This document shows positions 3,773-42,038 of a DNA stretch of 64,000 nucleotides, piece by piece. Below the pieces are notes generated by a model, which had not been told where the DNA came from, made no database searches, and saw only the letters and a list, made by a program, of their open reading frames with translations. The translations under genes were made by a program, and so were the position numbers. The stretch covers positions 496,001-560,000 of the forward strand of contig NZ_CP040671.1 of NCBI RefSeq assembly GCF_008386235.1, in the 5' to 3' direction. This DNA is from Thermosynechococcus sp. CL-1 (GTDB taxonomy: Bacteria; Cyanobacteriota; Cyanobacteriia; Thermosynechococcales; Thermosynechococcaceae). Each line of letters opens with the position of its first letter. Position 1 is the first letter of the stretch.

Positions 3773-4738
3773 CTAATTACGGGCAGCTTTTTGGGGCGGT
3801 AGCGTAATTCCCAAGTGTTTTTGCAGTGCCTCGATCACTTCCTCAGCAGACTTTTGACCGAAGTTTTTGATCTCCAGTAGCTCTTCTTGGGAATACTCAA
3901 GGAGGTCAGCGACCGTATTGACTTGGGCACGCTTGAGACAGTTGTAGGCACGCACCGACAAATTGAGTTGCTCAATGGGAATTTGTCCCGTTTCATCATG
4001 CTCGTCAGTGGTGGTGGCCTCGGAGGTGTGCAGGGGCACTTCCTTCAAGGGGCTAAAGAGATCCACGAGGATTGTTGCCGCCTGATTGAGGGCATCTTGG
4101 GGGGTCAAGCTGCCATTCGTCCAGATTTCCAGCTTTAGATAGTCTTGGAGTTGGCGATCGCCCTCTGTACCGGCACTGCGCACCGAATCAACGGTATAGT
4201 TCACCCGCCGCACGGGCATAAAGACCGCATCCAATTGCAGATAGTCCAAGGCAAGGCGATCGTCCCGTACCCGCTCCACCGAGCGATAGCCGCGATCCTG
4301 TTCAATCTTGAATTCCATCTCCAAGGTTGCCCCCGGCATCAGCGTGGCAATATAGTGGTTGGGGTTGACCACTTCCACTTCAGAGCCAAGTTGCACCATG
4401 CCAGCAGTAACCGTCAATGGCTCATTCTCAGGGGCTTGGGCAAAAAGGCGACCCATTTGGGGTTCTGAGGTGTGGCTGCGAATCACCAACTGCTTCATTT
4501 GCAGCAAAATGTCCATGACATCTTCGCGCACACCGGGAATTGTTGAAAACTCATGATTCACACCGGCAATGCGCACCGCTGTCACGGCACTACCGGGTAA
4601 GTTGGCAAGAAGAACCCGCCGCAGGGCATTCCCCACCGTAATCCCTTGACCGGGGGCGAGGGGGTGCAGCGCAAATTGGCCGTACTGCCCTTGATCCTCC
4701 TCAACCCGTGTTTCCAAACATTCAATTTGATATGCCAT
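3773..4738 (-). CDS. rpoA: DNA-directed RNA polymerase subunit alpha
   Basis: Assembles the RNA polymerase core and contacts promoters and activators through its C-terminal domain. The reading frame is open further upstream to 4798, but the ATG at 4738 (MAYQIECLETR) has a GGGAG before it, avoids a 31-base overlap with rpsK and gives 321 residues. The N-terminal dimerisation domain shows GITVGNALRRVLLANLPG and GVREDVMDILLQ; the helix-hairpin-helix CTD shows LNLSVRAYNCLKRA and IKNFGQKSAEEVIEAL. It sits in the conserved rpsM-rpsK-rpoA-rplQ order. Confidence 0.96.
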   Translation of the reverse strand: MAYQIECLETRVEEDQGQYGQFALHPLAPGQGITVGNALRRVLLANLPGSAVTAVRIAGVNHEFSTIPGVREDVMDILLQMKQLVIRSHTSEPQMGRLFAQAPENEPLTVTAGMVQLGSEVEVVNPNHYIATLMPGATLEMEFKIEQDRGYRSVERVRDDRLALDYLQLDAVFMPVRRVNYTVDSVRSAGTEGDRQLQDYLKLEIWTNGSLTPQDALNQAATILVDLFSPLKEVPLHTSEATTTDEHDETGQIPIEQLNLSVRAYNCLKRAQVNTVADLLEYSQEELLEIKNFGQKSAEEVIEALQKHLGITLPPQKAARN

Positions 4739-4767
4739 AGCTGTGCTCCCAAGTGACCCAAACCAAC

Positions 4768-5160
4768 CTAAACCCGCCGCCGTTTGGGGGGACGGCAACC
4801 ATTGTGGGGAATGGGGGTCACATCCCGAATGAGGGTAATTTCTAGACCTGCGGCTTGCAACGCCCGAATCGCTGTCTCGCGACCGGAACCGGGACCACTC
4901 ACCATGACCTCAATTTGCCGCATCCCCTGATCAATGGCACGGCGAGCTGCATTATCAGCAGCAGTTTGAGCCGCAAAGGGTGTGCCTTTTTTGGCACCTT
5001 TGAAACCACTGGAGCCAGCGGAGGCCCAAGCAATCACCTCACCATTGGGGTCGGTAATTGAGACAATCGTGTTATTAAATGTGGACTGAATGTGGGCAAC
5101 GCCACTGGGGACATTGCGCTTTTGCTTACGAGGGCCAGAGCGTTTTGCAGAGGGTGCCAT
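4768..5160 (-). CDS. rpsK: 30S ribosomal protein S11
   Basis: Platform protein of the small subunit lining the E-site mRNA path. The 130-residue protein has [38 protein letters not shown] and the C-terminal [18 protein letters not shown], all diagnostic of S11. It follows rpsM and precedes rpoA by about 30 bases. Confidence 0.97.
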
Positions 5161-5202
5161 AATCTATCCAAACCGTGAATCAGGTAGCAGGAGCGGAAAA
5201 AT

Positions 5203-5583
5203 TTATTTCTTAGCAGCGGGTTTTTTCTTACCCGCCACAGTGCGGCGACCACCACGACGGGTGCGAGCATTGGTACGGGTACGCTGACCACGAACCGGCA
5301 ATCCAAGGCGATGCCGCCGCCCGCGGTAGCAGCCAATGTCCATGAGCCGCTTGATATTCATGGCCTCGAGACGGCGCAGATCCCCTTCCACTTGGTACTC
5401 GTCAATCGCAGCCCGCAGTGCCGCAATATCGGCATCCGTCAAATCGCGAGTGCGGGTATCTGGGTTAACACCCGTTTTTGCCAAAATTTCTTTGGAGCGG
5501 GTCAAGCCGATGCCATAGATGTAGGTGAGGGCAATTTCAATGCGTTTGTCGCGGGGTAAATCAACACCAGCAATACGAGCCAT
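5203..5583 (-). CDS. rpsM: 30S ribosomal protein S13
   Basis: Head protein contacting P-site tRNA and L5 (bridge B1b). The 126-residue sequence begins [21 protein letters not shown] and has [25 protein letters not shown] near its end, followed by a long basic tail. It follows rpmJ in the usual order. Confidence 0.97.
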
Positions 5584-5616
5584 GAATCTAGTTCCTATGT
5601 GTGCAACAACAGTGGG

Positions 5617-5730
5617 TTACCCTTGGCGCTGCTTGTGCTTCGGATTGGTGCAGATCACCATGACCCGACCACGTCGCCGAATGACGCGGCATTTTTCACA
5701 AATACGCCGTACCGATGCTCTTACTTTCAT
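5617..5730 (-). CDS. rpmJ: 50S ribosomal protein L36
   Basis: A 37-residue zinc-ribbon protein read by translating the gap between infA and rpsM. It starts [17 protein letters not shown] and ends NPKHKQRQG. The metal ligands Cys11, Cys14, Cys27 and His32 are all present, so this is the zinc-binding form. The infA-rpmJ-rpsM-rpsK order is conserved in bacteria. Confidence 0.95.
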
Positions 5731-5790
5731 ATCAGTTGCTCATGTAGTCGCAAATTTTATATCTTAGCAGAGTGGCCAACAAAGATCAAA

Positions 5791-6015
5791 CTACTTTTTG
5801 CGCAGGCGATAGGTAATCCGCCCCTTGGTCAGGTCATAGGGGGTCAATTCCACCTTCACGCGATCGCCCGGCAAAATTTTGATGTAGTTGCGGCGAATCT
5901 TACCGGAAATATGGGCAAGGACATTAAAGCCATTGTCCAGATCCACCCGAAACATGGCGTTGGGCAATGACTCGGTCACTGTCCCTTCAATTTCAATAGC
6001 ATCCTGTTTAGACAC
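5791..6015 (-). CDS. infA: translation initiation factor IF-1
   Basis: Occupies the ribosomal A site during initiation. The 74-residue OB-fold protein has [44 protein letters not shown] and [10 protein letters not shown], essentially the full family consensus. The start is a GTG at 6015, which overlaps the adk stop by 8 bases and so implies coupling to adk translation. Confidence 0.96.
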
Positions 6016-6595
6016 GGTTCACCTCCCCAATACGTGCTTGAATGGCAGCAGTTACCTCTTCGATCGTACGTGTTCCATCAATGTGTACAAACTTGGGATG
6101 ACTCATGTACTGTCGAATCATTGGTAGGGTTTCCCGCTCATAGACCTGTACCCGCTTGAGGATGGTTTCAGGAGTATCATCGGAGCGCTGCTGACCATTG
6201 GCCGCTTGCTTGGCGCGATTGAGGGCGCGTTCTTGGAGAATCGCAGCAGGCACATCTAAGAAGAGCAAGTAATCATAGTCTTGGTGAATGCTTTTGAGCA
6301 TCTCCTCAAAGACTGCCGCCTGTGCCCCATTGCGGGGAAAACCGTCCAAAAGCCAACCCGCAGCCGTATCTGGCTGTTGCAAGCGATTGGCCACCATATC
6401 CACAATCACCTGATCCGGTACCAGTTCACCGCGATCCATGTAGTTTTGAGCCTGTTGACCGAGGGGGGTGCCCGCAGCTCGCTCTGCCCGCAGAATATCC
6501 CCTGTGGAAATATGGGGAATCCCCAAAAGCGTGGTCAGAATTGCTGCCTGTGTCCCCTTGCCCGAACCGGGACCGCCAAACAAAATTAAGCGCAT
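6008..6595 (-). CDS. adk: adenylate kinase
   Basis: Interconverts ATP plus AMP and two ADP. The 195-residue protein has the P-loop [11 protein letters not shown] at residues 6-16, the AMP-site [11 protein letters not shown] and the LLDGFPRN motif. The LID (about residues 125-150) is the short form without the four-Cys zinc site of some bacterial enzymes, common in cyanobacteria. Its ATG overlaps the secY stop by one base (TAATG), a tight coupling that belongs to the secY-adk-infA block of the spc operon. Confidence 0.96.
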
Positions 6596-7905
6596 TACTG
6601 CTTCACCATCCCCTCATAACGTTGTGAAATCACATAGGTTTGAATCTGTTTTGAGGTGTCAATGGCCACCCCCACCAAGATCAACAGGGAGGTCGCCCCC
6701 AGCCCTTGAAATGTTGTTACTTTGGTTGCACTTTCGACTGCCGTGGGAATAATCGCCACCAGACCCAAAAAGATCGCCCCTAGGAATGTCAGGCGGTTGA
6801 GAACCCGCTCTAGGTAATCAGAGGTGGCTTTCCCCGGTCGGATTCCCGGAATACTGGCGCCCATTTTTTTCAGGTTTTGGGACATATCCACAGGGTTGAC
6901 CACTAAGGAGGAGTAAAAGTAGCTAAAGAAGAGAATCAACAGTAAATAGAAAATCACATATAGCCACGGCGTCGGCCCTGCTGGAGAAACATAACTCGCA
7001 AATCGCGCCACGAGTTCATTGCGGGTAAACTGCGCTAAGGTCGAAGGCAGAATCAGTACTGCTGAGGCGAAAATGATTGGCATCACCCCCCCTTGGTTTA
7101 AGCGCAGGGGCAGGTAACTGGTTTGCTCGCGGTAGAGTTTGCGCCCCACTTGGCGACGTGCCGAAACAATAGGGATGCGGCGGGTACCCTCTTGCACAAA
7201 GACAATGCCAACAATCATGGCCAAAAAGACGGCCACCAGAATAACAATGCCGCCAATATTGCCACCACTTTCGGCGAGGGCGATCGTCTGACCCACTGAG
7301 GCAGGCAAGTAGGCAACAATGCTCAAAAAGATCAAGAGTGAGGCTCCATTACCCACGCCCCGCTCAGTAATCAATTCCGAAATCCACATCACCACCATTG
7401 AGCCAGCGGTCAGGCCAAGGACAATTTCAGCCACAAACCACGCCCCCGGATGCAAAGCCGCACCGGGAATGGAACTCACAAAAATGGCAATGCCAAAACT
7501 TTGCAGAACTGCCCAGCCCACAGCCACGTAGCGAGTAATTTGGGAAATTTTGCGGCGGCCGGCTTCTCCCTCATCCTTTTGCAGCCGCTCCAAGGAGGGG
7601 AGAGCAGCAGTCAGCAATTGCATGATGATGGAGGCGTTAATATAGGGCAGGATGCCGAGGGCAAAAATCCCAAGGGCAGAGAGGCCACCGCCTGAAAAGA
7701 TGTCGAGGAAGCGAATCACGGCATTATCTTGGACGCTCTGGGCAAAAACGGCGCGATCGATCCCCGGAATGGGTAGATAAATCCCCAGCCGTACCAAGAT
7801 CAATAGCCCAATGGTGATCAGGAGTCGCCCCCGCAGACCAGCCGCTTGAGCCATCTGCATAAAGGTTTCTTGGGCAGTGGGTGCCTTGCCGCGATTCACA
7901 ATCAT
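6595..7905 (-). CDS. secY: protein translocase subunit SecY
   Basis: Channel subunit of the SecYEG translocon, in cyanobacteria serving both plasma and thylakoid membranes. The 436-residue protein shows ten hydrophobic segments beginning at about residue 28 and the SecY signatures ALGILPYINASIIMQLLTAALPSLERLQKDEGE and the cytosolic loop IPIVSARRQVGRKLYREQ. It follows rplO and is coupled to adk by a TAATG overlap. Confidence 0.96.
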   Translation of the reverse strand: MIVNRGKAPTAQETFMQMAQAAGLRGRLLITIGLLILVRLGIYLPIPGIDRAVFAQSVQDNAVIRFLDIFSGGGLSALGIFALGILPYINASIIMQLLTAALPSLERLQKDEGEAGRRKISQITRYVAVGWAVLQSFGIAIFVSSIPGAALHPGAWFVAEIVLGLTAGSMVVMWISELITERGVGNGASLLIFLSIVAYLPASVGQTIALAESGGNIGGIVILVAVFLAMIVGIVFVQEGTRRIPIVSARRQVGRKLYREQTSYLPLRLNQGGVMPIIFASAVLILPSTLAQFTRNELVARFASYVSPAGPTPWLYVIFYLLLILFFSYFYSSLVVNPVDMSQNLKKMGASIPGIRPGKATSDYLERVLNRLTFLGAIFLGLVAIIPTAVESATKVTTFQGLGATSLLILVGVAIDTSKQIQTYVISQRYEGMVKQ

Positions 7906-7917
7906 ATTGGGGTTCCT

Positions 7918-8382
7918 CTATTCACTGTCGGCAGCAACGCAGGTCTCCACACATACCCCACCAGCAGCTTCAATCTTGCTGCGGGCACTGCCACTAAAGG
8001 CAGCGGCATGAACCTCTAGCTTGACGTTTAGCTCACCATCCCCCAGCACTTTGAGGGGATATTTGGCGGTGGTGAGAATGCCAGCCTCAAGGAGAGACTC
8101 AACCGTCACTACACTATTGGCGGGTAGGGTATTGAGACGACCCACGTTGATCGTAGTGTAAACCTTCCGGTTGACGAGGGGAAAGTGCTTGAGTTTGGGG
8201 AGACGACGGTAGAGGGGGTTTTGACCGCCTTCAAAGCCGGGACGGGTGGGGCGACCAGAACGGGATTTTTGCCCGCGCATCCCAAAGCCACCACTTGCCC
8301 CTTGACCTGCGGCAATGCCCCGACCAATCCGCCGTTTGCGTCGTCGCGATCCCGCTTGGGGGTGCAGATCTTGAAACCGCAT
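7918..8382 (-). CDS. rplO: 50S ribosomal protein L15
   Basis: Large-subunit protein, 154 residues. The N-terminal half is the Gly/Arg-rich extension typical of L15 ([40 protein letters not shown]). A TTG at 8388 is in frame, but the ATG at 8382 has AGGAG six bases before it. No rpmD (L30) is present between rpsE and rplO, as expected for cyanobacteria. Confidence 0.95.
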
Positions 8383-8395
8383 GGACAACTCCTAC

Positions 8396-8920
8396 CTATT
8401 TGCTATAGAGGTTTTCAATGGGGATTTCCCGCTCCTCGGCAACTTCTTGGAAGGTGCGCAAGGCTGCAAGGGCTTCGAGGGCGGCGCGGGCATTGTTGAG
8501 GGGGTTACTGGAGCCTAGTTGTTTGGCCAGCACGTTGCGTACCCCTGCTAGTTCCAGAACGGTGCGCACAGAACCACCAGCAATTACCCCGGTTCCCGGT
8601 GCAGCGGGGCGAATCATGACGCGGGCAGCACCGCCTTCGCCAAAAGTGGGGTGGGGAATAGAGTTGGATTTGGTGATCGGGACATCAATCAGGTGCTTTT
8701 TGCCATCGGCCACACCTTTGCGCACCGCACCAATGACATCGGCAGCTTTACCGACGCCCACACCCACTTGGCCACGCTCATTGCCAACAACCACAATGGC
8801 GCGGAAGCTTAGTTTCTTACCGCCTTTGACTACTTTGGAGACGCGGCGGATCTGGACGACCCGCTCTTGCCAGTCGGTTTCTTTTTCAACTTTGCGGGGG
8901 TTTTTACGACGATTTGCCAT
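8396..8920 (-). CDS. rpsE: 30S ribosomal protein S5
   Basis: Decoding-fidelity and mRNA-helicase protein of the small subunit. The 174-residue sequence has [37 protein letters not shown] and [16 protein letters not shown](Q)LGSSNP, the double-stranded RNA-binding and C-terminal motifs of S5. It lies between rplR and rplO. Confidence 0.97.
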
Positions 8921-8931
8921 CGGGTCATCCT

Positions 8932-9294
8932 CTAAAAGTCTAGTCCAGCTTCACGGGCGGCATCCGCCAAGGCCTTGACACGACCATGGTAGATATTGCC
9001 ACCGCGATCAAAGACAACGCGCTCAATGCCAGCGGCTTTGGCACGCTCTGCAATTAGTCGCCCCACTTCAATAGAGGCGGCACAGGTGCTCCCTTTTCCT
9101 AGTTTTTGCCGCAGTTCTGGCTCAACACTGGAAGCGGCCACAAGGGTATGGTGCCGGGTGTCATCAATCACCTGGGCATAGATATGCTGATGGGAACGAA
9201 AGACAGCGAGGCGGGGGCGATCGCTGGTACCTTTGACTTTGCGGCGAATGCGCTGATGCCGACTTTGGCGAGCCGCAGTACGAGTTTGTTTCAT
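8932..9294 (-). CDS. rplR: 50S ribosomal protein L18
   Basis: Binds 5S rRNA in the central protuberance. The 120-residue protein has [40 protein letters not shown] and [17 protein letters not shown]. Its ATG directly abuts the rplF stop (TAG then ATG), so ribosomes can reinitiate. Confidence 0.97.
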
Positions 9295-28630: not shown

Positions 28631-31600
28631 GTGAAAACTCTCCAACAGTACCTATTTTCCATCACCTTAGTCTTTTGGGGACTGTTGAGTAGCGCTGCTT
28701 ACAGCCAAATTACCCCAGCCACCAATGGCACTGGTACCACCGTCATCCAAAATGATCAACAAATCGATATTGGCGGTGGCCGCCTATCGGGGAATGGTCA
28801 AAATCTCCTTCACCTCTTCCGTGACTTCAATGTCGGTAACGGCCAAATTGCGAACTTTCTTTCTAACCCGCAAATTCGCAACATTCTTGCAGGGGTCAAT
28901 GGTGGCAACGCCAGTTACATCAATGGCTTGATTCAAGTTACGGGTGGCAACAGTAACCTTTATCTGCTCAACCCTGCGGGAATTGTCTTTGGCCCCAATG
29001 CTCGTTTGAATCTCCCCGCTGCCTTCCATGCTTCTACCGCTCAACGGGTGCTGTTTGAGGGAGGGATCTTTGATGTCAATGGCCAGAATCTCTATCAATC
29101 CCTCAATGGTCAGCCCACAGGTTTTGAATTTCTGAGTAAAGGCCTCATCATCAATGAGGGTGAGCTGAGGGTGGGTCGTGGTCAAACCCTGAGCCTGATG
29201 GCGCACCAAGTGATCAATACGGGTACACTCGCAGCCCCTGCAGGAAATATCCACATTGCGGCTGTACCTGAAACAGGAATGGTGCGCGTCTCCCAAGAGG
29301 GAATGCTGCTCAGCCTTGAGATTCCTCAAGAGCGACTACCGACTGGGGGAGCGATCGCCGCTGTGGACTTACCCAGCTTACTCACTGGCAATGGTTCACA
29401 ACCTGTCAACAGCGTCATTCAAAACCCCGACGGCACAATTCGCCTTGTCCATGACCCCAACAAAATTCCCACCACAACGAACACCGCCGTCATCAGTGGT
29501 AGCCTTTCCGTCGCCAACCCCATCGGTATGGGTGGCCAAATCACGATCACTGGTCAAAATATCGCCCTCATCAATGCCAACTTAACCGCCTCTGGTCAAC
29601 TCGGGGGTGGCACGATTCTCTTGGGGGGCGATTACCTAGGGGGCACCACTGGTACCAACCGGTTGCATAGCAGTTTCAATGCCCAGAATCTCTTTATCAA
29701 CAGCGGCAGTGTGATTGCAGCGGATGCCTTCAATCAAGGCAATGGTGGCACTGTCATTGCATGGGCAGATAACAGCACCCAATTTGCCGGCACGATCAGC
29801 GCACGCGGCGGGCAACTTAGCGGTAATGGCGGCTTTGTGGAAACCTCTGGGCGGGAATTACTCAGCGTTCGGGGAACAGTAGATGTCAGTGCAGTCAAGG
29901 GTCAGCCCGGTACATGGCTCCTTGATCCACGAAATGTCACCATTTCTAACTTCCCTACGAGTGGCGGGAGTTTCTCTGGGAGCAATCCTGATGTCTTTAC
30001 CCCCACCACTGATAATGCCTTTGTTGTGAGCACTGCCATTGAAGCTGCTTTGAATCTCGGCACTAGCGTCATCATCACAACTGGTGATACTGGAACCCAA
30101 GCAGGGGATATTTCTGTACTTGCCTCGATTACCAAAATAGGCGGCGGCGATGCCTCCCTCACCTTGCAAGCTGCAAATGACATTCTTGTTGCCGATGACA
30201 TTCGCTCAGAAGCAGGCCGACTGAATATCATTCTCCATGCTGATGCCGATAACAGTGGTGCAGGAGCAATTAGATTAGACTCAGTTACACTCATTACCAA
30301 TGGTGGCAATATTATTTTGGGGGGTGGCTCTAATCCCTTCACCAGTCCAGCGATCGGTCTCGGCACTGCTGGGGTTCGTATCATAAACTCTACCCTCAAT
30401 GCAGATGGCGGCCATATTAGGATTCATGGCAGCGGTGCAACAATTGATGGCCAAGAAGGGGTGCTGATCGGTGGGAGTTCAATCTTCACCTCAGGGTCTG
30501 GAGAGATCACCATTCTAGGGACAGGTGGTTCTAGTGTTTATAGCCCTGTGGATGGTATCTCGATTCAAAACTCCTCCATCAGCGCCGAAGCTGGCAATCT
30601 GACCTTAACGGGTACTGGGGGCAACGTCTCCGAAGGAGTTTCCAACGTTGGCATCCATCTTGAAGAGTCAGGAATTCGAACCACGACTGGAAATATTACC
30701 CTGACGGGTACTGGTGGTACGGGCTTTGCCTACAACCAAGAAGGTATTCTGAGTAGCTTCACAAGTATTACCAGTCAAAGTGGTGACATTATCCTGAGAG
30801 GTACAGGGGGTGAATTCGGTGCTGGTCTTGGCTTTAGGGCAGCAACTGACACAGAGTACTCTGCTGAGGTCAGAACGGCTGGAAATGGGAAGATTCTCAT
30901 CGAAGGTCGCGGCACTGACGGCAATCCTGGTCTGGTCATGGAAGTCTCTGACGCCCCCCTGACATTAGCTGTTCAAGATGGCATGCTCACATTAGCAGCT
31001 CAGGGGGGGATTGAAGTCTTGGGTGATTTTCCCTCTCTGCTAGATATCCATAGTGCCGGGGCAGGCCGCCTTGTCTTTCAACCGATTGATGCGCATACTC
31101 CCGTCGGCATTGGCGATGGTGCAACGGGTAACTTAATCATTGATCAGTTTCTCCTCAACCAAATCACGGGTGGATTTTCTTTGGTGACCATTGGTCACCC
31201 TAATGGTACTGGTCTCATTGATGTTCGTCCCTTCAGCCTCAACTACAATCTTGCGCTGCAAACCCCCGGCGTAAGTTCCCTAGGTATTCAGTTCAATGGC
31301 TCTGGCACGACGAATCTCTATGGTCGCAATCTCACACTCAATAGCGGTGGCGGCGTTACTCAGGGCAGTCATGTCATTTCTGCGGGAACGCTGCAACTTC
31401 TTGGACAGGGGACTTTCACCCTCAACAATGTCAACAATGAGTTTCAGGCACTCTCAGGCAATGTCAGTGGAAATGTGAACTTGAGTCATCAAGGTGCCCT
31501 AGGTATCGTTAGTTTCAACAATGGTGTCAATGGCCTCACCACTGGCATCAATACCAACGGCAATACCCTAATCCTCAGCTTAAACAGTGGGAACCTAACG

Positions 31601-33574
31601 CAAAGTGCACCAATTCGAGCAGGCAACTTGGGTTTAACTTTACGAAATGGCAGTGCAATCCTAACCAACCCCAATAACCAAGTGGGGATACTAGCTGCTG
31701 AGTTGAACAGTGCGAGTGATTTGCAATTTGTCAATAACAGTACCCTTACCGTTGGCAATGTTAACCCAACAGGCATTACAGGGCGCAACATTTTCCTACA
31801 AACACTAACAGGCGATATTGTTCTCAATGCGCCAATTTCTGCCGTTGGGACTGGGGATGCGATTGTCCTTGCTGCGGAAAATAACTTTGTTAACAACTAT
31901 GGCTCCGGTGTCTTCAGTACCCCCAACGGTCGCTGGCTAGTTTATTCGACTGACCCGAATTTCAATATCAACGGCGGCCTCACGGGTTCAGAGCAATTCA
32001 ACACTACTTATCCTGAGCCTGCCCTATTTTCTGGTTCTGGTTTTCTCTATCGGGTTTCTCAAGCACCGCCAACTCCACCCACGGAGCCATCCACACCCCC
32101 AACTCCACCCACGGAGCCGTCCACACCGCCAACACCACCAGAACCCCAAACTCAAGAGAATCTGGGTCGGATTTTATTGGGAGAGGAGATACAAGGCACT
32201 CAACTGCCCCAGAATACCGCTCAAGTCATTTACTTCCCCGGAGTTGAGATCATTCGTCAGCAAATCAGTACGGCTTTTGATCAGGGAGACTACAACAGTG
32301 CGATCAAACTGCTTCAGCAGCTTTATTCCTTTGAGTTTAGTGAGTACTTTGGTGAATTTTTGAGCACTCCTAGTCAAGAGGGACTACAGTTCCTTGACAT
32401 TGATCAAATCAAAGAATTATTGGGGCGTATGGCTGAAGAAACAGGTCAAAAACCTGCCCTGAGCTATGTCTTTTGGCGACCTGAACAACTAGATATATTT
32501 ATCATCACACTCGAAGGGGAACCCATTTATCAACCCGTTCGAGTGCCCCAAGAAGTAGTGCGCCGCGTCATTTCTGCCTTTAATCGCGAGGTGCGAGATC
32601 CAACGAAAACCAATAGCGAATCCTATCTACCCTTTGCGCAGCAGCTTTACCAATGGATCATGGGCGGCGTTGATGCTGAATTGCAAGCACGAGGCATTAA
32701 TACACTGGTTTTTGCCCTTGATCAGGGGTTGCGGAGTGTGCCGATCGCGGCTTTGCACACGGGGTCAAATCTTATTTCCTCAACGGTCAGTGATAGTCCA
32801 ATCGGTCGTAATGGTCAGTTTCTAGTGGAACGCTATAATCTGGGTCTCATTCCCAGTATCAACTTGGTGGATACCCGCTACCAACCGTTGCAAAATGCTT
32901 CTGTACTGGCAATGGGTGCCTCGCAGTTCACAAAGCAAAGTCCTTTGCCAGCGGTTCCCATCGAGCTACAAACCATTACGCAACTGGTAGGACGAGGGCA
33001 AGTATTCCTCAATGAAGCTTTTACGGTCTCAAACTTGGAAACTCAGCGGCGGCGCAGTCTCTACCCTATCCTACACTTAGCGACCCATGGTGAATTTAAT
33101 GCGGGTAAGCCACAAAATTCCTATATTCAGTTTTGGGATAGCCAGCTTTCAATGGCTCAAGTGCGGCAGTTGCGGTTATTCCAGCCACCCACAGAGCTAA
33201 TGACGCTGAGTGCCTGTCGCACAGCGGTAGGAGATACCAATGCAGAACTTGGGTTTGCTGGACTGTCACTCCAAGCGGGCGTGAAAAGTTCGGTTGCTAG
33301 CCTTTGGTATGTCAGTGATGAAGGGACGCTGGCTTTGATGACGGCATTTTATGGACAGTTGAGAATCGCTCCCATTAAAGCAGAGGCCTTGCGACAGGCG
33401 CAGCTTGCCCTGATCCATCAGCAGGTTGTGATTGAGGAGAATCATCTGCGTAGTGCTGGGGTGCAGGGAGGGCTTTCAATTCCTTTGCCCCCAGAAGTTC
33501 AAACTGGGGGTGGGCGTCAACTTTCCCATCCGTACTTTTGGGCGGGATTTACGATGATTGGCAGCCCTTGGTAG
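28631..33574 (+). CDS. secreted two-partner-secretion exoprotein fused to a CHAT protease
   Basis: A 1647-residue protein. Residues 1-25 are a signal peptide (hydrophobic core SITLVFWGLLSSAAYS). Residues about 26-280 are a filamentous-hemagglutinin TPS domain with SNLYLLNPAGIVFGPNARL. Residues about 280-1140 are Gly/Asn/Thr-rich beta-helix repeats (many LTGTGG-type turns). About 1144-1178 is a Pro/Thr linker with a 10-residue repeat (PTPPTEPSTP). The C-terminal 460 residues end in a CHAT caspase-like domain with His1486 (LHLATHGEF) and Cys1529 (LSACRTAVGD), both catalytic residues intact. It would be exported by Sec and a TpsB pore. No tpsB is adjacent. Such fusions are known in cyanobacteria; targets are unknown. 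Confidence 0.88.
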   Translation: MKTLQQYLFSITLVFWGLLSSAAYSQITPATNGTGTTVIQNDQQIDIGGGRLSGNGQNLLHLFRDFNVGNGQIANFLSNPQIRNILAGVNGGNASYINGLIQVTGGNSNLYLLNPAGIVFGPNARLNLPAAFHASTAQRVLFEGGIFDVNGQNLYQSLNGQPTGFEFLSKGLIINEGELRVGRGQTLSLMAHQVINTGTLAAPAGNIHIAAVPETGMVRVSQEGMLLSLEIPQERLPTGGAIAAVDLPSLLTGNGSQPVNSVIQNPDGTIRLVHDPNKIPTTTNTAVISGSLSVANPIGMGGQITITGQNIALINANLTASGQLGGGTILLGGDYLGGTTGTNRLHSSFNAQNLFINSGSVIAADAFNQGNGGTVIAWADNSTQFAGTISARGGQLSGNGGFVETSGRELLSVRGTVDVSAVKGQPGTWLLDPRNVTISNFPTSGGSFSGSNPDVFTPTTDNAFVVSTAIEAALNLGTSVIITTGDTGTQAGDISVLASITKIGGGDASLTLQAANDILVADDIRSEAGRLNIILHADADNSGAGAIRLDSVTLITNGGNIILGGGSNPFTSPAIGLGTAGVRIINSTLNADGGHIRIHGSGATIDGQEGVLIGGSSIFTSGSGEITILGTGGSSVYSPVDGISIQNSSISAEAGNLTLTGTGGNVSEGVSNVGIHLEESGIRTTTGNITLTGTGGTGFAYNQEGILSSFTSITSQSGDIILRGTGGEFGAGLGFRAATDTEYSAEVRTAGNGKILIEGRGTDGNPGLVMEVSDAPLTLAVQDGMLTLAAQGGIEVLGDFPSLLDIHSAGAGRLVFQPIDAHTPVGIGDGATGNLIIDQFLLNQITGGFSLVTIGHPNGTGLIDVRPFSLNYNLALQTPGVSSLGIQFNGSGTTNLYGRNLTLNSGGGVTQGSHVISAGTLQLLGQGTFTLNNVNNEFQALSGNVSGNVNLSHQGALGIVSFNNGVNGLTTGINTNGNTLILSLNSGNLTQSAPIRAGNLGLTLRNGSAILTNPNNQVGILAAELNSASDLQFVNNSTLTVGNVNPTGITGRNIFLQTLTGDIVLNAPISAVGTGDAIVLAAENNFVNNYGSGVFSTPNGRWLVYSTDPNFNINGGLTGSEQFNTTYPEPALFSGSGFLYRVSQAPPTPPTEPSTPPTPPTEPSTPPTPPEPQTQENLGRILLGEEIQGTQLPQNTAQVIYFPGVEIIRQQISTAFDQGDYNSAIKLLQQLYSFEFSEYFGEFLSTPSQEGLQFLDIDQIKELLGRMAEETGQKPALSYVFWRPEQLDIFIITLEGEPIYQPVRVPQEVVRRVISAFNREVRDPTKTNSESYLPFAQQLYQWIMGGVDAELQARGINTLVFALDQGLRSVPIAALHTGSNLISSTVSDSPIGRNGQFLVERYNLGLIPSINLVDTRYQPLQNASVLAMGASQFTKQSPLPAVPIELQTITQLVGRGQVFLNEAFTVSNLETQRRRSLYPILHLATHGEFNAGKPQNSYIQFWDSQLSMAQVRQLRLFQPPTELMTLSACRTAVGDTNAELGFAGLSLQAGVKSSVASLWYVSDEGTLALMTAFYGQLRIAPIKAEALRQAQLALIHQQVVIEENHLRSAGVQGGLSIPLPPEVQTGGGRQLSHPYFWAGFTMIGSPW

Positions 33575-36988: not shown

Positions 36989-37606
36989 CTGCTTTGTCTT
37001 GGTTTTGATACCAGCGATGCCCCACTGGTGGCCGGTCTCTATGATTTAGAGGCAGATCAACTGCTAGAGGTGAAAACATGGCCCTTGGGTCGAGAACTGG
37101 CCAGCCAACTTCACCCTTGCCTTGGGGAACTGATGGGTCGCTACACTTGGGGTGAACTAGGGGCGATCGCTATTGGCTGTGGCCCGGGCAGCTTTACGGG
37201 AACGCGCTTGGGGGTCGTGACTGCCCGCATCCTAGCCCAGCAACTGGAAGTTCCCCTTTTGGGTCTGTCTAGCCTTGGCACAATGGCGTGGCACTATCGT
37301 GATGAACTCATAGAACAGGATGGGGTGGTGTCGCGTCGTGCCCAGCAGGGGCATCAGTACCTTGGCATTTACCGTTATCAGGGGGGAAGTCTTAATTCTC
37401 TTTGGGGCGATCGCCTGCTGGCCGACCACGAAGCAGCAACACTTTTAGCTACTTGGCCTCACCCCTACAAACCCCTGAGTCCCCCCAACCCCACTGACTA
37501 TGGCCGCGCTCTGCTCACATGGGCAGCCCAACAGTGGCACGATACACTAAGGGCAGGGGAAAAACTCCCCCATTGGTCAAGCGTGGTGCCCCTCTATGGC
37601 AAATAA
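36989..37606 (+). CDS. tsaB: tRNA threonylcarbamoyladenosine synthesis protein TsaB (CTG start)
   Basis: Partner of TsaD in making t6A37 of ANN-decoding tRNAs. The conserved ASKHA first strand (LCLGFDTSDAPLVAGLYDLE) and the loop GCGPGSFTGTRLGVVTAR identify TsaB. A GTG at 37028 would remove this strand and its LGFDTSD loop. The frame upstream is closed by TGA at 36980, and no ATG, GTG or TTG lies between, so initiation at CTG 36989 is the likely solution; GGAGTGA, nine bases before it, is a good Shine-Dalgarno inside psb34. This gives 205 residues. The stop overlaps the next gene by 11 bases. Confidence 0.85.
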   Translation: MLCLGFDTSDAPLVAGLYDLEADQLLEVKTWPLGRELASQLHPCLGELMGRYTWGELGAIAIGCGPGSFTGTRLGVVTARILAQQLEVPLLGLSSLGTMAWHYRDELIEQDGVVSRRAQQGHQYLGIYRYQGGSLNSLWGDRLLADHEAATLLATWPHPYKPLSPPNPTDYGRALLTWAAQQWHDTLRAGEKLPHWSSVVPLYGK

Positions 37607-39050
37607 CTGGGAACTTGGTCGCTTTCTCGATACACTGCGCTTTTTTCAAGCCCTCCCCTTTGTGGGAACACTGGAGCCCCTCCGCCCTGTGCTGTCACCC
37701 CTTTTACCGGATCTCTTTAAGCCGCCCGCCTATCGGGGCAGTGGTCTTGTTGTGGTGATGGGGGCAACGGGTCGAACCGGTCAAGCAGTGGTGAAAACCC
37801 TCTTGGCTCAAGGCTATGCGGTGCGGGCAGGGGTGCGCGATCGCGCCAAAGCTGAGAATGTACTTCCCTCAGACCCTTTTTTAGACATTGTCGTTGCCGA
37901 CGTGACTCAACCCTTGCCTGCCGATCTCTTGCAGGGCAGTCGGGCGGTGATCAACTGTGTTGGGGCAAAGGTACAGCCCAATCCCAACGCGCCACCCCCC
38001 GGCCTTGAAATTGTCGGTGCGAGTCCAGAGGCGGTTGAATTTGAGGGCATGCGGCATTTGTTGGAACGTGCCCAACCCTATTTTCAAAGTCAACCCAACA
38101 CCTATCCCCTCTTTGACTATCGCTATCCCACGCCCCCCCTGAAGGAAGTTTGGGGTGCCCTCGATGATGTGGTCATGGGCGGCGTCAGTGCCAGCCAGTT
38201 TTACCTCAAGGATCACAGCGCCCTCTTCACGGGGCTGGTTTCTACGGAAAATTCTGGGGGGTTTGTCTCGATTCGCACCCGCAACCTCACCCCAGCCCTC
38301 AATCTCCAAGGCTACACGGGCATTCAACTGCGGGTTCGCGGCGATGGCCAGCGCTATAAATTTTTCCTACGCAGTGACCCCGCTTGGGATGGCGTCGGCT
38401 ATGCCATGTCCTTTGATACGGTGGCCGATCAGTGGATCACGGTTGAATTGCCCTTTAGCCACTTTATTCCGGTGTTTCGGGCCCGCACTGCCACCAATGC
38501 GCCGCCTCTAAATGTGGGGCAAATTTACTCGCTGCAACTGATGCTCAGCAAATTTGAGTATGACGGTGCCCTCAACCCCCACTTCCGCCCCGGCACCCTC
38601 AGCCTTGAGATTGAGTCGATTCAAGCCTATGGAGGGTTGCCCTTGCCCCGCATGATTCAGGTGAGTTCTGCGGGGGTGACCCGTCCGCAACAAGCGGATC
38701 TTGACCTGAAGGGGCAGCCCTTGGCAGTTCAATACAACGACCAACTGGGGGGCATCCTCACTTGGAAACTGGCGGCAGAAAATATGCTGCGCCAAAGTGG
38801 CCTACCCTATACGATTGTCCGCCCCTGTGGTCTGACGGATCAGCCCGGTGGCAAAGAGCTGCGCCTTGATCAGGGCGATCGCCTGACGGGTTCTCTGAGT
38901 CGCGAAGATTTAGCGGCGTTTCTGGTCAGCTTACTGAATTTGCCCGTGGCCTGCTATCGCACCGTAGAAGTGGTAGCCACAGATCAAGCCGCCGAGGCCT
39001 ATCCCAATTGGGCAGCACGCCTTGCCCAAATCCCTAGCGATCGCCCCTAG
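37596..39050 (+). CDS. atypical SDR with inserted CIA30 domain (HCF173-like)
   Basis: A 484-residue protein. After an N-terminal segment comes a Rossmann fold with the nucleotide loop VVMGATGRTGQAVV at residues 53-66. Residues about 180-345 are a CIA30-type beta domain (WGALDDVVMGGVSASQF, FSHFIPVF). The SDR fold then resumes (MIQVSSAGVT, LRQSGLPYTIVRPCGLTD). This SDR-CIA30-SDR layout is that of plant HCF173, a psbA translation factor; cyanobacterial homologues are less studied. Proximity to psb34 fits a role in photosystem II biogenesis, which is inference. A typical SDR catalytic YxxxK is not evident. Confidence 0.82.
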   Translation: MANNWELGRFLDTLRFFQALPFVGTLEPLRPVLSPLLPDLFKPPAYRGSGLVVVMGATGRTGQAVVKTLLAQGYAVRAGVRDRAKAENVLPSDPFLDIVVADVTQPLPADLLQGSRAVINCVGAKVQPNPNAPPPGLEIVGASPEAVEFEGMRHLLERAQPYFQSQPNTYPLFDYRYPTPPLKEVWGALDDVVMGGVSASQFYLKDHSALFTGLVSTENSGGFVSIRTRNLTPALNLQGYTGIQLRVRGDGQRYKFFLRSDPAWDGVGYAMSFDTVADQWITVELPFSHFIPVFRARTATNAPPLNVGQIYSLQLMLSKFEYDGALNPHFRPGTLSLEIESIQAYGGLPLPRMIQVSSAGVTRPQQADLDLKGQPLAVQYNDQLGGILTWKLAAENMLRQSGLPYTIVRPCGLTDQPGGKELRLDQGDRLTGSLSREDLAAFLVSLLNLPVACYRTVEVVATDQAAEAYPNWAARLAQIPSDRP

Positions 39051-39063
39051 GAGACAGTGGGAA

Positions 39064-40320
39064 ATGGTGCGTTTCCTCCATGTTGCCGATGTCCACCTTG
39101 GCTTTAATAAGTACCGTCAAGAGAATCCCAATCGCACGTTTGATTTTTTCACCGCCTTTGACAGTGCCCTGCAAACCTACGCCATCGAGGCACAGGTGGA
39201 TTTTGTCCTGATTGCCGGCGATCTCTTTGAGGAGCGGCTGATTACCCCCGGCATTCTCAATCAAGCGGAATACGTCCTCGACAAGGTGCGATCGGCGGGG
39301 ATTCCCGTGCTGGCGATCGAGGGCAACCACGATAACTGCCCCTACGGTGTCAAGTCCAACTGGCTCCGCTACCTCTGTGAAAAAGACTATCTCTATCTAC
39401 TGGAACCTGACGAAAGTGGCCAATTACAGCCGTGGGACGCCGAGGCAGCGCGGGGTGGCTATATGGATCTCCCCTGTGGCGTGCGCGTCATTGGTTCCCA
39501 GTGGTATGGTGCCAGTGCCCCCCGTGCCATTCAACAGCTTGCCAGTCAAATTCAGGCACTACCGCCCGCTGCTGGTGCGACGATTTTGCTCTTTCACCAC
39601 GGCCTTGAGGGGCAAGTCTCCCGTTACCAAGGGGCATTGCGCTACAACGAACTCCTACCCCTGCGCCAAGCGGGTGTAGATTACCTTGCCCTAGGGCATA
39701 TTCATCGCCATTACGCCGTTGAGGATTGGATCTTTAATCCTGGCTCCGTTGAGGCCAATTCGATTCAGGAAAATCAGCAGCAAAATCCGCGGGGGGTGCT
39801 GTTGGTCACCCTTGAGAAGGGGTCACCCCAAGCGGAACTCAAGCGCGACTATTGGCAGCGTCCCATCCATCGCTACACCCTTACCCTCACCCCCAGTAAC
39901 ACCGTGAGCCATGTGGAGAGCCAACTCCAGCAACTGGTGCAGCGGCATCGCTCAGACATGGCAGAGGCGATTGTCGAAGTCACCCTAAAAGGCGAAGTGG
40001 GGTTTGAGCGCGGCGATTTATCTGTGCGATCGCTCCAAGAGCAACTGCAAGAGGCAGCCAATGCTTTTATCTTTCGATTGGGGTTTGCCGCAACCCCTGT
40101 GGCCTATCAAACCTACCGTGATGCGACGGCTGAACCACCCCCCCGCGCCCAGATCGAAGAACAGGTGTTTACGGATCTGCTGGCCAGTGTTGCTGAGTAC
40201 CGCGATCGCGCCGAACCCTTGGCCAAGGTGCTGATGCACATCAAAGAAGATCTGCTACAACCCAATGCCAATATTCCTGACCTCTACCAGTGGCTGGCAG
40301 ACCTCTCCCTAGAAAGTTAG
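39064..40320 (+). CDS. sbcD: SbcD-like DNA repair exonuclease
   Basis: Mre11-type metallophosphoesterase of the SbcCD complex that trims hairpins and blocked ends. From ATG 39064 (GGAG upstream) the protein is 418 residues. The phosphodiesterase motifs are FLHVADVHLGF, LIAGDLFEE, IEGNHDNCP, LLFHHGLEG and LGHIHRHYAVEDW, covering all metal ligands. A capping region follows. sbcC is not in the window. The annotated longer frame (from 39022) overlaps the previous gene and is not needed. The gene ends in a 4-base convergent overlap with the DUF928 gene. Confidence 0.9.
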   Translation: MVRFLHVADVHLGFNKYRQENPNRTFDFFTAFDSALQTYAIEAQVDFVLIAGDLFEERLITPGILNQAEYVLDKVRSAGIPVLAIEGNHDNCPYGVKSNWLRYLCEKDYLYLLEPDESGQLQPWDAEAARGGYMDLPCGVRVIGSQWYGASAPRAIQQLASQIQALPPAAGATILLFHHGLEGQVSRYQGALRYNELLPLRQAGVDYLALGHIHRHYAVEDWIFNPGSVEANSIQENQQQNPRGVLLVTLEKGSPQAELKRDYWQRPIHRYTLTLTPSNTVSHVESQLQQLVQRHRSDMAEAIVEVTLKGEVGFERGDLSVRSLQEQLQEAANAFIFRLGFAATPVAYQTYRDATAEPPPRAQIEEQVFTDLLASVAEYRDRAEPLAKVLMHIKEDLLQPNANIPDLYQWLADLSLES

Positions 40321-41060
40321 GGCTGGGGTGGTAATGGGATGAGGGGTTGATTCGCCACATTGGCCAACTGGACAGCGGGAGACTGCAACAGGGCTTGCCA
40401 TTTTTGCTGGAGCTGGGCATTCCGCGGCTGCGCTAGGCGTTGTTTGGCCAGTTGATTGAGGGTGTCGTACCAGTAGCCCGCCATGGCAAAGGCATCCGCC
40501 ACATCCTTAGCTTGCACGATTCGCTGCTGTTGGCTTGGCGATAAGGGCATCGGTCGGAACCAACTGACGGTTTTGACGGCTGTGGTGCCATTGGTACAGG
40601 TGAGGGTGAGTTGCCACTGGTAATCCACCCCATTTTTGAGGGCAACATTCTCCACAGGCCAGCCAATAATACCCGCTTCCGTGGGGGCAGGACGCTCTTG
40701 GCGATAGACTTCTGTGCCTTGGGGATCCCGCAGCGTCAGGGTTAGGGTTGCGCCCTTGTTGGCGGGAATGAAGCTATAGAGGGTAGGGGTGGGGGTGCTG
40801 CTAAGGCCATTGTTATCCTTGGGCACAAGGGCAACCACAGTTTGTTTTGGCTCAGTTAGACAGCTTTCGATGCCACCGGTACTTTCCCGCAGTAGCATGG
40901 GACGGGCAATCCGCGTTGCAGCTCCCTCACGGTTACCGGGGCGGCCAATATTAGCGGGTGGACGATAACTTGCCCAAGAGGCATGGGCGATCGCCCCAAT
41001 CATGACCACTGCCAAACTTAGGGGAACGGCAATGGGGCGGATCCCAAATTGAATAGCCAT
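40317..41060 (-). CDS. DUF928 domain exported protein
   Basis: A 247-residue protein starting with a signal peptide (MAIQFGIRPIAVPLSLAVVM, cleaved near HASWA). The mature part matches the cyanobacterial DUF928 pattern: ESCLTEPKQTVVALVPK, TPTLYSFIPANKGATLTLTL, VDYQWQLTLTCTNGT with a Cys pair, and a C-terminal helical end with DAFAMAGYWYDTLNQLA. In other cyanobacteria DUF928 genes often neighbour TPS-CHAT exoproteins (recalled, not checked); here one lies about 7 kb away. Function unknown. Start taken as ATG 41060 rather than the longer frame from 41090. Confidence 0.75.
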   Translation of the reverse strand: MAIQFGIRPIAVPLSLAVVMIGAIAHASWASYRPPANIGRPGNREGAATRIARPMLLRESTGGIESCLTEPKQTVVALVPKDNNGLSSTPTPTLYSFIPANKGATLTLTLRDPQGTEVYRQERPAPTEAGIIGWPVENVALKNGVDYQWQLTLTCTNGTTAVKTVSWFRPMPLSPSQQQRIVQAKDVADAFAMAGYWYDTLNQLAKQRLAQPRNAQLQQKWQALLQSPAVQLANVANQPLIPLPPQP

Positions 41061-41129
41061 ATCACTCAATCCTCGCAATTGAACAGGCAATGAACCGGGA
41101 CTCAGTTCAACAGGTCATTGGAATTCTTT

Positions 41130-42038
41130 CTAAAAACTAAAGATGTTGCGAATGACGCTGACACCCGTATTGACGGTATTCAAAATTGAATTGATGTTCT
41201 CAATGCGATCGCGACTATCGGGTTGACTCGGTGCGGTCACAACCACAGGCGCAGTGCCACTGGCGATCGCCTGATTATCTACTTGCAGAGAGAGAAACAC
41301 ACCCGCCGCTGGCGCACCCGTCAGAAAGGTGTTAATCGGAATCGCGTAATTAAACCCCGGCTTAATCAAGCTGGCAATGCTCGCTGCCGCCTCTGGACTC
41401 AAGCCTTGGCGCTCAAGGGAGCGGGGGTCTTCTGTATCACCGAGACCATGAACCCCGACCACACGCCCTGCACTATCCAAAACAGGGCCACCACTCATGC
41501 CGCGACGGGTAACATTGGTGTAGATCATTTTATAGCCATCAATGGGTTCAATCAAAAAGCCGGAGATACGGCCATCGGTAAACTGCCGCACTAACTGACC
41601 ACTGCCCCCCGGCTGCGGCCACCCCGAGATAAAGACCTGCGACCCTTCCTTGGCAAAGTCAGAGTTTGTCAGCGTAGCCACCTGATAGTCTTTTTTCTCG
41701 CTTGTGAATTCCACAATAGCTAAATCTGTATTCGGCAAAAATTTAATCTTACTGAAATCAACGGCGTAGGCCTGCTGATCAATGGGAATCACGCGGTAAT
41801 TATCCTTACGATTGACAACGTGCTTTGCCGTAAGCACATAGTAGGTCGAACCGGAGCGGGAAATAATGGCACCAGAACCGTGGGAATCTTTCCCCACAAT
41901 CAAGACTGTGATGTTGCGGGCAATCTCGTTAATTTGCTCACCACTCAGGGGTTGGACTTGACCCACTGCGGGTAAAGCCATTGCCACTAACCCCGTTGCT
42001 CCGAGCATCGCACCCCTCACCCCTGCGTAGTTCATCAT
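41130..42038 (-). CDS. exported trypsin-like serine protease
   Basis: A 302-residue protein. Residues 1-26 are a signal peptide (ATGLVAMALPAVG). The S1/S46-like chymotrypsin fold has the catalytic triad His73 (LTAKHVVN), Asp105 (LPNTDLAIV) and Ser182 (RRGMSGGPVLD). There is no PDZ domain, so it differs from the HtrA enzyme at 51064. The C-terminal 60 residues are low complexity and then end in a hydrophobic-aromatic tail (VIRNIFSF). It probably acts in the periplasm. Monocistronic by layout, 69 bases from the DUF928 gene on the same strand. Confidence 0.85.
   Translation of the reverse strand: MMNYAGVRGAMLGATGLVAMALPAVGQVQPLSGEQINEIARNITVLIVGKDSHGSGAIISRSGSTYYVLTAKHVVNRKDNYRVIPIDQQAYAVDFSKIKFLPNTDLAIVEFTSEKKDYQVATLTNSDFAKEGSQVFISGWPQPGGSGQLVRQFTDGRISGFLIEPIDGYKMIYTNVTRRGMSGGPVLDSAGRVVGVHGLGDTEDPRSLERQGLSPEAAASIASLIKPGFNYAIPINTFLTGAPAAGVFLSLQVDNQAIASGTAPVVVTAPSQPDSRDRIENINSILNTVNTGVSVIRNIFSF

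Follow-up and report, generated by a model that had tools for sequence, protein, structure and literature searches.

The window analysed here, a 64,000-nucleotide stretch of the Thermosynechococcus sp. CL-1 genome (contig NZ_CP040671.1, positions 496,001 to 560,000), carries on its forward strand a gene, hereafter tps-chat, that starts with GTG at 28631, ends at 33574 and encodes a protein of 1647 residues. The gene was delineated from its open reading frame, its Pfam matches to TPS and CHAT domains, its orthologues in the genus and the purifying selection acting on it. Since it is about 85% conserved over its full length in two further species of the genus, and is under such selection, it is not a chance ORF. 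It is flanked by genes for a semialdehyde dehydrogenase and ThiG, one on each side, and between them lies a 150-aa ORF that matches no Pfam family. Further along the same strand, at 37596-39050, the window encodes an NAD-binding protein that is interrupted midway by an inserted CIA30 domain.

The tps-chat product starts with a putative Sec signal peptide (residues 1-25, VKTLQQYLFSITLVFWGLLSSAAYS; 28631-28705), which was read by eye from the translation and resembles the N-termini of the orthologues; the predicted cleavage point, also placed by eye, falls between SSAAYS and Q. The TPS secretion domain follows (residues 28-229; 28712-29317), as matched by Pfam PF05860 (E 2e-30) and NCBIfam TIGR01901; it contains an NPAGIVFG motif at residues 114-121, and the NCBIfam match, named adhes_NPXG, covers residues 61-138. 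The long middle part (residues ~271-1140; 29441-32050) is repetitive by eye and presumably beta-helical, and no Pfam family matched this region in a search of the protein. It leads into a Pro/Thr-rich linker (residues ~1145-1172; 32064-32147), recognised from the sequence and from tandem-repeat analysis, in which a 30-bp repeat occurs in 2.5 copies at 32064-32139. Finally, a separase-like module (residues 1203-1647; 32237-33571) comprises, according to the AF2 model and VIA-align comparison described below, a helical hairpin, a pseudo-caspase half and a CHAT half with the dyad. CHAT itself (PF12770) matches residues 1334-1645 with an E-value of 1.2e-69, at 235 bits against a curated cut-off of 24. 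Within it lie the codons of the putative catalytic residues His1486 (33086-33088; context HLATHGEF) and Cys1529 (33215-33217; context LSACRT). The first-pass annotation had read this gene as encoding a secreted TPS exoprotein that ends in an intact CHAT domain; the predicted signal peptide and the two profile matches agree with that reading, and both residues are found where it had placed them. The product is very probably exported and protease-competent.

Fold and catalytic dyad of the CHAT module

We modelled residues 1203-1647 with AF2 from 60 diverse sequences, and the model reached a pLDDT of 90.3 and a pTM of 0.92. Its top match among solved structures by VIA-align was the TPR-CHAT of Craspase (7y84_C, Z 28.6, rmsd 3.0 over 342 residues), followed by separases at Z ~23, SAVED-CHAT, and gingipains at Z 16-18 (gingipain R 17.5). 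The match begins at chain residue 280 of TPR-CHAT (328 in the Desulfonema protein), and the matched region takes in the last part of the TPR region together with the pseudo-caspase and active-caspase halves that have been described for Csx29 (PMC10028731). The earlier comparison with the gRAMP/Craspase protease is thus borne out at the level of the fold. Since a PDB sequence search with CHAT profiles gave no relevant match, the link to Craspase is one of fold comparison only; the Pizza matches returned by that search were due to chance. Indeed, the identity between the tps-chat module and TPR-CHAT/Csx29 is only 12-15%, and the module has a single helical hairpin, with no further TPR superhelix and no match to a TPR family in Pfam. 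Unlike Csx29, the tps-chat product is predicted to be exported and stands without a CRISPR effector or Csx30. No gasdermin or CRISPR partner was seen among the flanking genes read, and PADLOC gave only a weak match, to BovA (E 0.007), over part of the CHAT domain.

His1486 corresponds to model residue 284 in the strand 278-287 and Cys1529 to model residue 327 in the strand 321-329, both near the strand ends. The model therefore places the two residues at the usual caspase-fold positions, and the predicted fold does not set them far apart, which would have told against the first-pass annotation. Their spacing of 43 residues is the same as that of H615 and C658 in Desulfonema Csx29, where the double mutant is inactive (PMC10028731). 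Furthermore, both residues are invariant in 60 of 60 aligned sequences, so that their conservation, too, follows the earlier proposal.

Cys1529 is also the sole cysteine of the 1647-residue product. The catalytic cysteine is present in all 56 TPS-CHAT proteins, in 36 of which it is the only cysteine of the mature chain; 52 of the 56 have an even count of non-catalytic cysteines (0, 2 or 4). This pattern fits transit through an oxidising compartment together with strong selection keeping the nucleophile, and in our view no other sequence evidence speaks as strongly for export and catalysis together. It bears on the idea that the domain is inactive and serves as a structural or sensor element. 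Relatives without the His and Cys motifs do exist, including an 811-aa protein of the same genome and a CHAT-CHASE2 fusion described below, and the anti-sigma factor DdvA has the same fold; however, the invariance of both residues, and the retention of the catalytic cysteine in every TPS-CHAT protein while nearly all other cysteines are absent, make an inactive domain very improbable here.

As to specificity, the invariant D1563 was considered as a separase-type S1 aspartate that would give P1 Arg specificity, and was rejected: in a motif alignment, the position of the separase S1 aspartate presumably corresponds to L1567 and not to D1563, so a separase-type S1 aspartate is probably not conserved in tps-chat. 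The aspartate in question is named as separase D2151, and its equivalent in TPR-CHAT is K670 (PMC9729208). Eukaryotic separase thus shares with the module the fold and the His-Cys dyad, but acts in a securin/cohesin context. The gingipains RgpB and Kgp, likewise exported, are cysteine peptidases of clan CD whose caspase fold, also in two subdomains, is comparable; they match by fold only, have no TPS domain and leave the cell by another route, the T9SS. Among cyanobacterial CHAT proteins, HetF and All2170 belong to the same Pfam family but are not described as TPS proteins; a mutation in All2170 has been linked to heterocyst loss in phage-resistant Nostoc, and HetF is called a divisome component in a title cited there (PMC10811720).

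Secretion partner, distribution and evolution of the parts

The closed 2.65-Mb host genome encodes six CHAT proteins, two TPS-domain proteins and one ShlB-type TpsB, so the pore gene for which the first-pass annotation had proposed a search is indeed present, in a single copy. It lies at C1:733088-734056, and its 574-aa product carries POTRA_2 and ShlB domains; the ORF beside it, named by reading its sequence, we take to be tryptophan-synthase-alpha-like. The distance to tps-chat is ~204 kb, and both tpsA genes of the host are unlinked to tpsB. Since both TPS proteins, that of the window and a 1420-aa paralogue, end in CHAT, the two-partner secretion system detected in the host has CHAT proteases as its sole clients. 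The remaining host CHAT proteins are two TPR-CHATs with signal-like N-termini, a 406-aa signal-peptide CHAT and the 811-aa protein mentioned above (L015, 5942-8377), which lacks the canonical His and Cys motifs and shows a weak HEAT match. In another member of the genus (G200), a 2537-aa TPS frame has no CHAT match.

Scanning 84,980 species genomes, we found 506 relatives; the 78 best loci, which were kept, are all cyanobacterial, mostly of Oscillatoriales type, with Nostoc, Leptolyngbya and Scytolyngbya in addition; our in-depth survey covered Cyanobacteria. Among the kept and later loci, 54 complete ORFs carry both TPS and CHAT, with lengths of 808-2873 aa and 0 residues after the CHAT domain. 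This type of CHAT (E <= 1e-50) occurs in 68 of 194 genomes of the phylum, and all 49 genomes with a best CHAT E-value <= 1e-80 have both TPS and ShlB. Some genomes hold many paralogues of this CHAT type. In eight of the genomes with TPS and ShlB (G103, G113, G139, G181, G145, G110, G014 and G187) the start of tpsB follows immediately on the end of CHAT in the same orientation, which is the classical tpsA-tpsB order of two-partner systems. The TPS-CHAT design is thus common within Cyanobacteria and not unusual there. Both halves are already known families whose domains are annotated in databases, and plasmid-borne relatives are annotated as 'CHAT domain-containing protein' or as TPR protein, while a search of open-access full texts found no study of TPS-CHAT proteins.

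We then compared the parts of the protein. Between close orthologues, dN/dS was 0.07-0.12 for the TPS domain and 0.09-0.11 for CHAT, against 0.17-0.40 for residues 451-800 and ~0.3 for the linker. Residues 451-800 are the fastest-evolving part, with 37-38% identity to the homologues of G200 and G194 compared with 69-79% in the flanking helix parts; CHAT is among the most conserved, at 81-92% identity. The fibre, by contrast, varies greatly in length: the distance from TPS to CHAT falls to ~110 residues in Oscillatoria proteins (for example L031, 6735-9269), and at the locus that in the host holds the 1420-aa paralogue, G201 and L033 retain only an N-terminal hydrophobic segment, the linker and CHAT. 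Related CHATs are exported by a predicted signal peptide or a lipoprotein-like signal alone, and the tree requires nine changes of TPS fusion state. Because this spacing shrinks, the fusion state changes and CHAT stays constrained, CHAT appears as the constant cargo and the fibre as optional, opposite to what is expected of a polymorphic contact toxin. A 1960-aa open frame in G195 (L020/L027) has a much expanded repetitive linker region between TPS and CHAT. In two members of the genus, the TPS-CHAT genes of L021 (G196) and L026 (G198) are in fragments, through decay or assembly error.

These comparisons bear on the contact-dependent cleavage of neighbours or predators that the first-pass annotation suggested, in which a fibre-borne protease would be a weapon against the proteins of competing organisms, predators or grazers. 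The TPS architecture is common to CdiA-type effectors, the protease sits at the C-terminus, and the variable middle region could be a binding region. Indeed, tps-chat shares with FhaB, CdiA and HMW exoproteins the signal peptide, the NPxG-motif TPS domain, the repetitive passenger and a ShlB-type TpsB with POTRA domains. It differs in that its C-terminus is a conserved CHAT peptidase rather than a variable toxin or prodomain, and in that the host tpsB is unlinked and no immunity gene accompanies it. When the neighbours of 78 loci were clustered, no immunity-like partner recurred, and most TPS-CHAT loci had no conserved neighbour; the clusters contained TpsB, DUF928 (in four loci) and generic genes, or arose from shared gene order in close relatives, and the hypothesis of an immunity gene was rejected. 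The CdiA-type hallmark of a polymorphic C-terminal toxin with an adjacent immunity gene is thus absent. Delivered toxins are typically polymorphic, whereas this CHAT is highly conserved, is exported elsewhere by a signal peptide or lipoprotein-like signal alone, occurs as many paralogues of the same type in some genomes and in some TPS-CHATs has almost no fibre to carry it. Taken together, these data do not support contact-dependent cleavage of neighbours or predators, and we consider a weapon improbable.

DUF928, CHASE2 kinases and the proposed function

A second gene of interest, at 40317-41090 on the reverse strand and 6.7 kb downstream of tps-chat, encodes a 257-aa DUF928 protein (PF06051, E 7e-40), which we list tentatively as a candidate TPS/CHAT accessory as DUF928 tracks TPS. 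Directly beside it, at 41130-42038 on the same strand, lies a gene for a trypsin-like serine protease whose N-terminus is signal-like. Taken alone, the proximity of DUF928 to tps-chat could be chance. Among 194 cyanobacterial genomes, 64 have a strong TPS domain, and 62 of these also have DUF928, against 1 of the 130 others, as raw counts that ignore phylogeny; within one family, the same kind of raw counts, again regardless of phylogeny, gives 19/19 with TPS and 0/6 without. In examples hand-picked among the matches listed, three genomes have DUF928 116-225 bp away from TPS genes, and others have it close to ShlB or CHAT. In Roseofilum (L097), the DUF928 gene (4233-5063) ends just before a TPS-CHAT gene (5070-9284) on the same strand.

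The TPS and CHAT parts also occur as separate genes, in clusters that all come from family f7 and were chosen for DUF928 near TPS. In L141, L142 and L146 (from G161, G119 and G024), TPS exoproteins are followed by a signal-peptide TPR-CHAT that has both His and Cys, then by DUF928 and a CHASE2-type gene, which is a CHASE2 histidine kinase by Pfam in L141 and by similarity in L142 and L146. In L140 (G024), the order is TPS, a CHAT-CHASE2 fusion without the dyad motif (6535-8898) and DUF928, and the genes of L143-L145 are similar-looking. From the split and fused arrangements taken together, we suggest a joint action of TPS and CHAT; the distribution of DUF928 suggests a role for it in two-partner secretion or CHAT systems.

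We thus propose that the tps-chat product is a cysteine endopeptidase of the separase/Craspase-CHAT type that leaves the cytoplasm by two-partner secretion. Its architecture, the presence of TpsB, the fold and the strong constraint on the catalytic residues can be taken as established or nearly so. As is usual in two-partner secretion, where the exoprotein crosses the inner membrane by Sec, binds TpsB through its TPS domain and is threaded from N- to C-terminus, the product would be exported by Sec, its N-terminal TPS domain would dock on the single TpsB pore, and the chain would pass through N-terminus first. The variable, presumably beta-helical spacer and the extensible Pro/Thr linker would then tether the C-terminal module, whose pseudo-caspase and active-caspase halves would use His1486 and Cys1529. 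The protease would be active but regulated rather than degradative, with only one envelope or surface protein, or a small number of them, as substrate; relatives of CHAT have to be activated and cut at few sites (PMC9729208, PMC11106740). It would act in the envelope, either at the outer surface or, as with the C-termini of FhaB and CdiA, at the periplasmic face of the outer membrane. We put the probability of a regulated envelope protease that uses His1486/Cys1529 and is exported via TPS/TpsB at about 60%, and favour it because related CHATs carry a signal peptide only and because in Nostocaceae-type genomes exported TPR-CHATs stand beside separate TPS, DUF928 and CHASE2 kinase genes.

Where in the envelope the protease would act is a matter that overlaps this reading and cuts across the others. 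Secretion may stall before CHAT, leaving only the TPS domain and helix exposed at the surface and the protease directed at periplasmic or outer-membrane targets. CdiA and FhaB hold their C-termini in the periplasm, and in the window protein a Pro-rich linker directly precedes CHAT; since signal-peptide-only homologues exist, which would be periplasmic, such a site is plausible. Scoring for a Pro-rich linker, however, picks out only 19 of 54 TPS-CHATs, so a stall at the linker cannot be general, and we give the periplasmic site a real chance, if somewhat below an even one.

The protease may instead act in cis, cleaving its own chain, for example at the linker, or sister TPS exoproteins, and so releasing or trimming a surface fibre. 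FhaB and other TPS exoproteins of other bacteria undergo proteolytic maturation, CHAT always lies at the extreme C-terminus of the complete TPS-CHATs examined, a flexible linker precedes it in the window protein, and in the split clusters CHAT adjoins TPS exoproteins. Against this, TPS-CHATs with ~110 residues between the two domains have no long fibre to release, free signal-peptide CHATs exist, and no conserved cleavage motif stood out on unsystematic inspection; we hold maturation rather unlikely to be the main task.

Returning to the regulated envelope protease, it may belong to a surface-sensing or exoprotein-processing module of cyanobacteria, of which DUF928 could be a further member, as could CHASE2 sensor kinases in Nostocaceae-type genomes. 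As a tentative extension, which we hold possible but not likely, a TPS surface protein, an exported CHAT, a periplasmic-looking DUF928 protein and CHASE2 kinases would constitute an extracytoplasmic caspase/separase-like signalling module that answers events at the surface with proteolysis and kinase signalling. TPS and CHAT would be fused in Thermosynechococcus and Oscillatoriales and split in Nostocaceae-type clusters, and the host two-partner system would serve two such proteases and nothing else. Through its link to DUF928 and CHASE2 kinases, the protease may also give the unexplained DUF928 family a function, and tps-chat itself encodes a directly testable protease in a laboratory-transformable type of cyanobacterium. 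CHAT proteases are best known as intracellular immunity switches triggered by RNA or other signals, and a large family of separase-like CHATs that leave through an outer-membrane pore, often with the catalytic cysteine as their sole remaining cysteine, would bring caspase-like proteolysis to the surface of bacterial cells.
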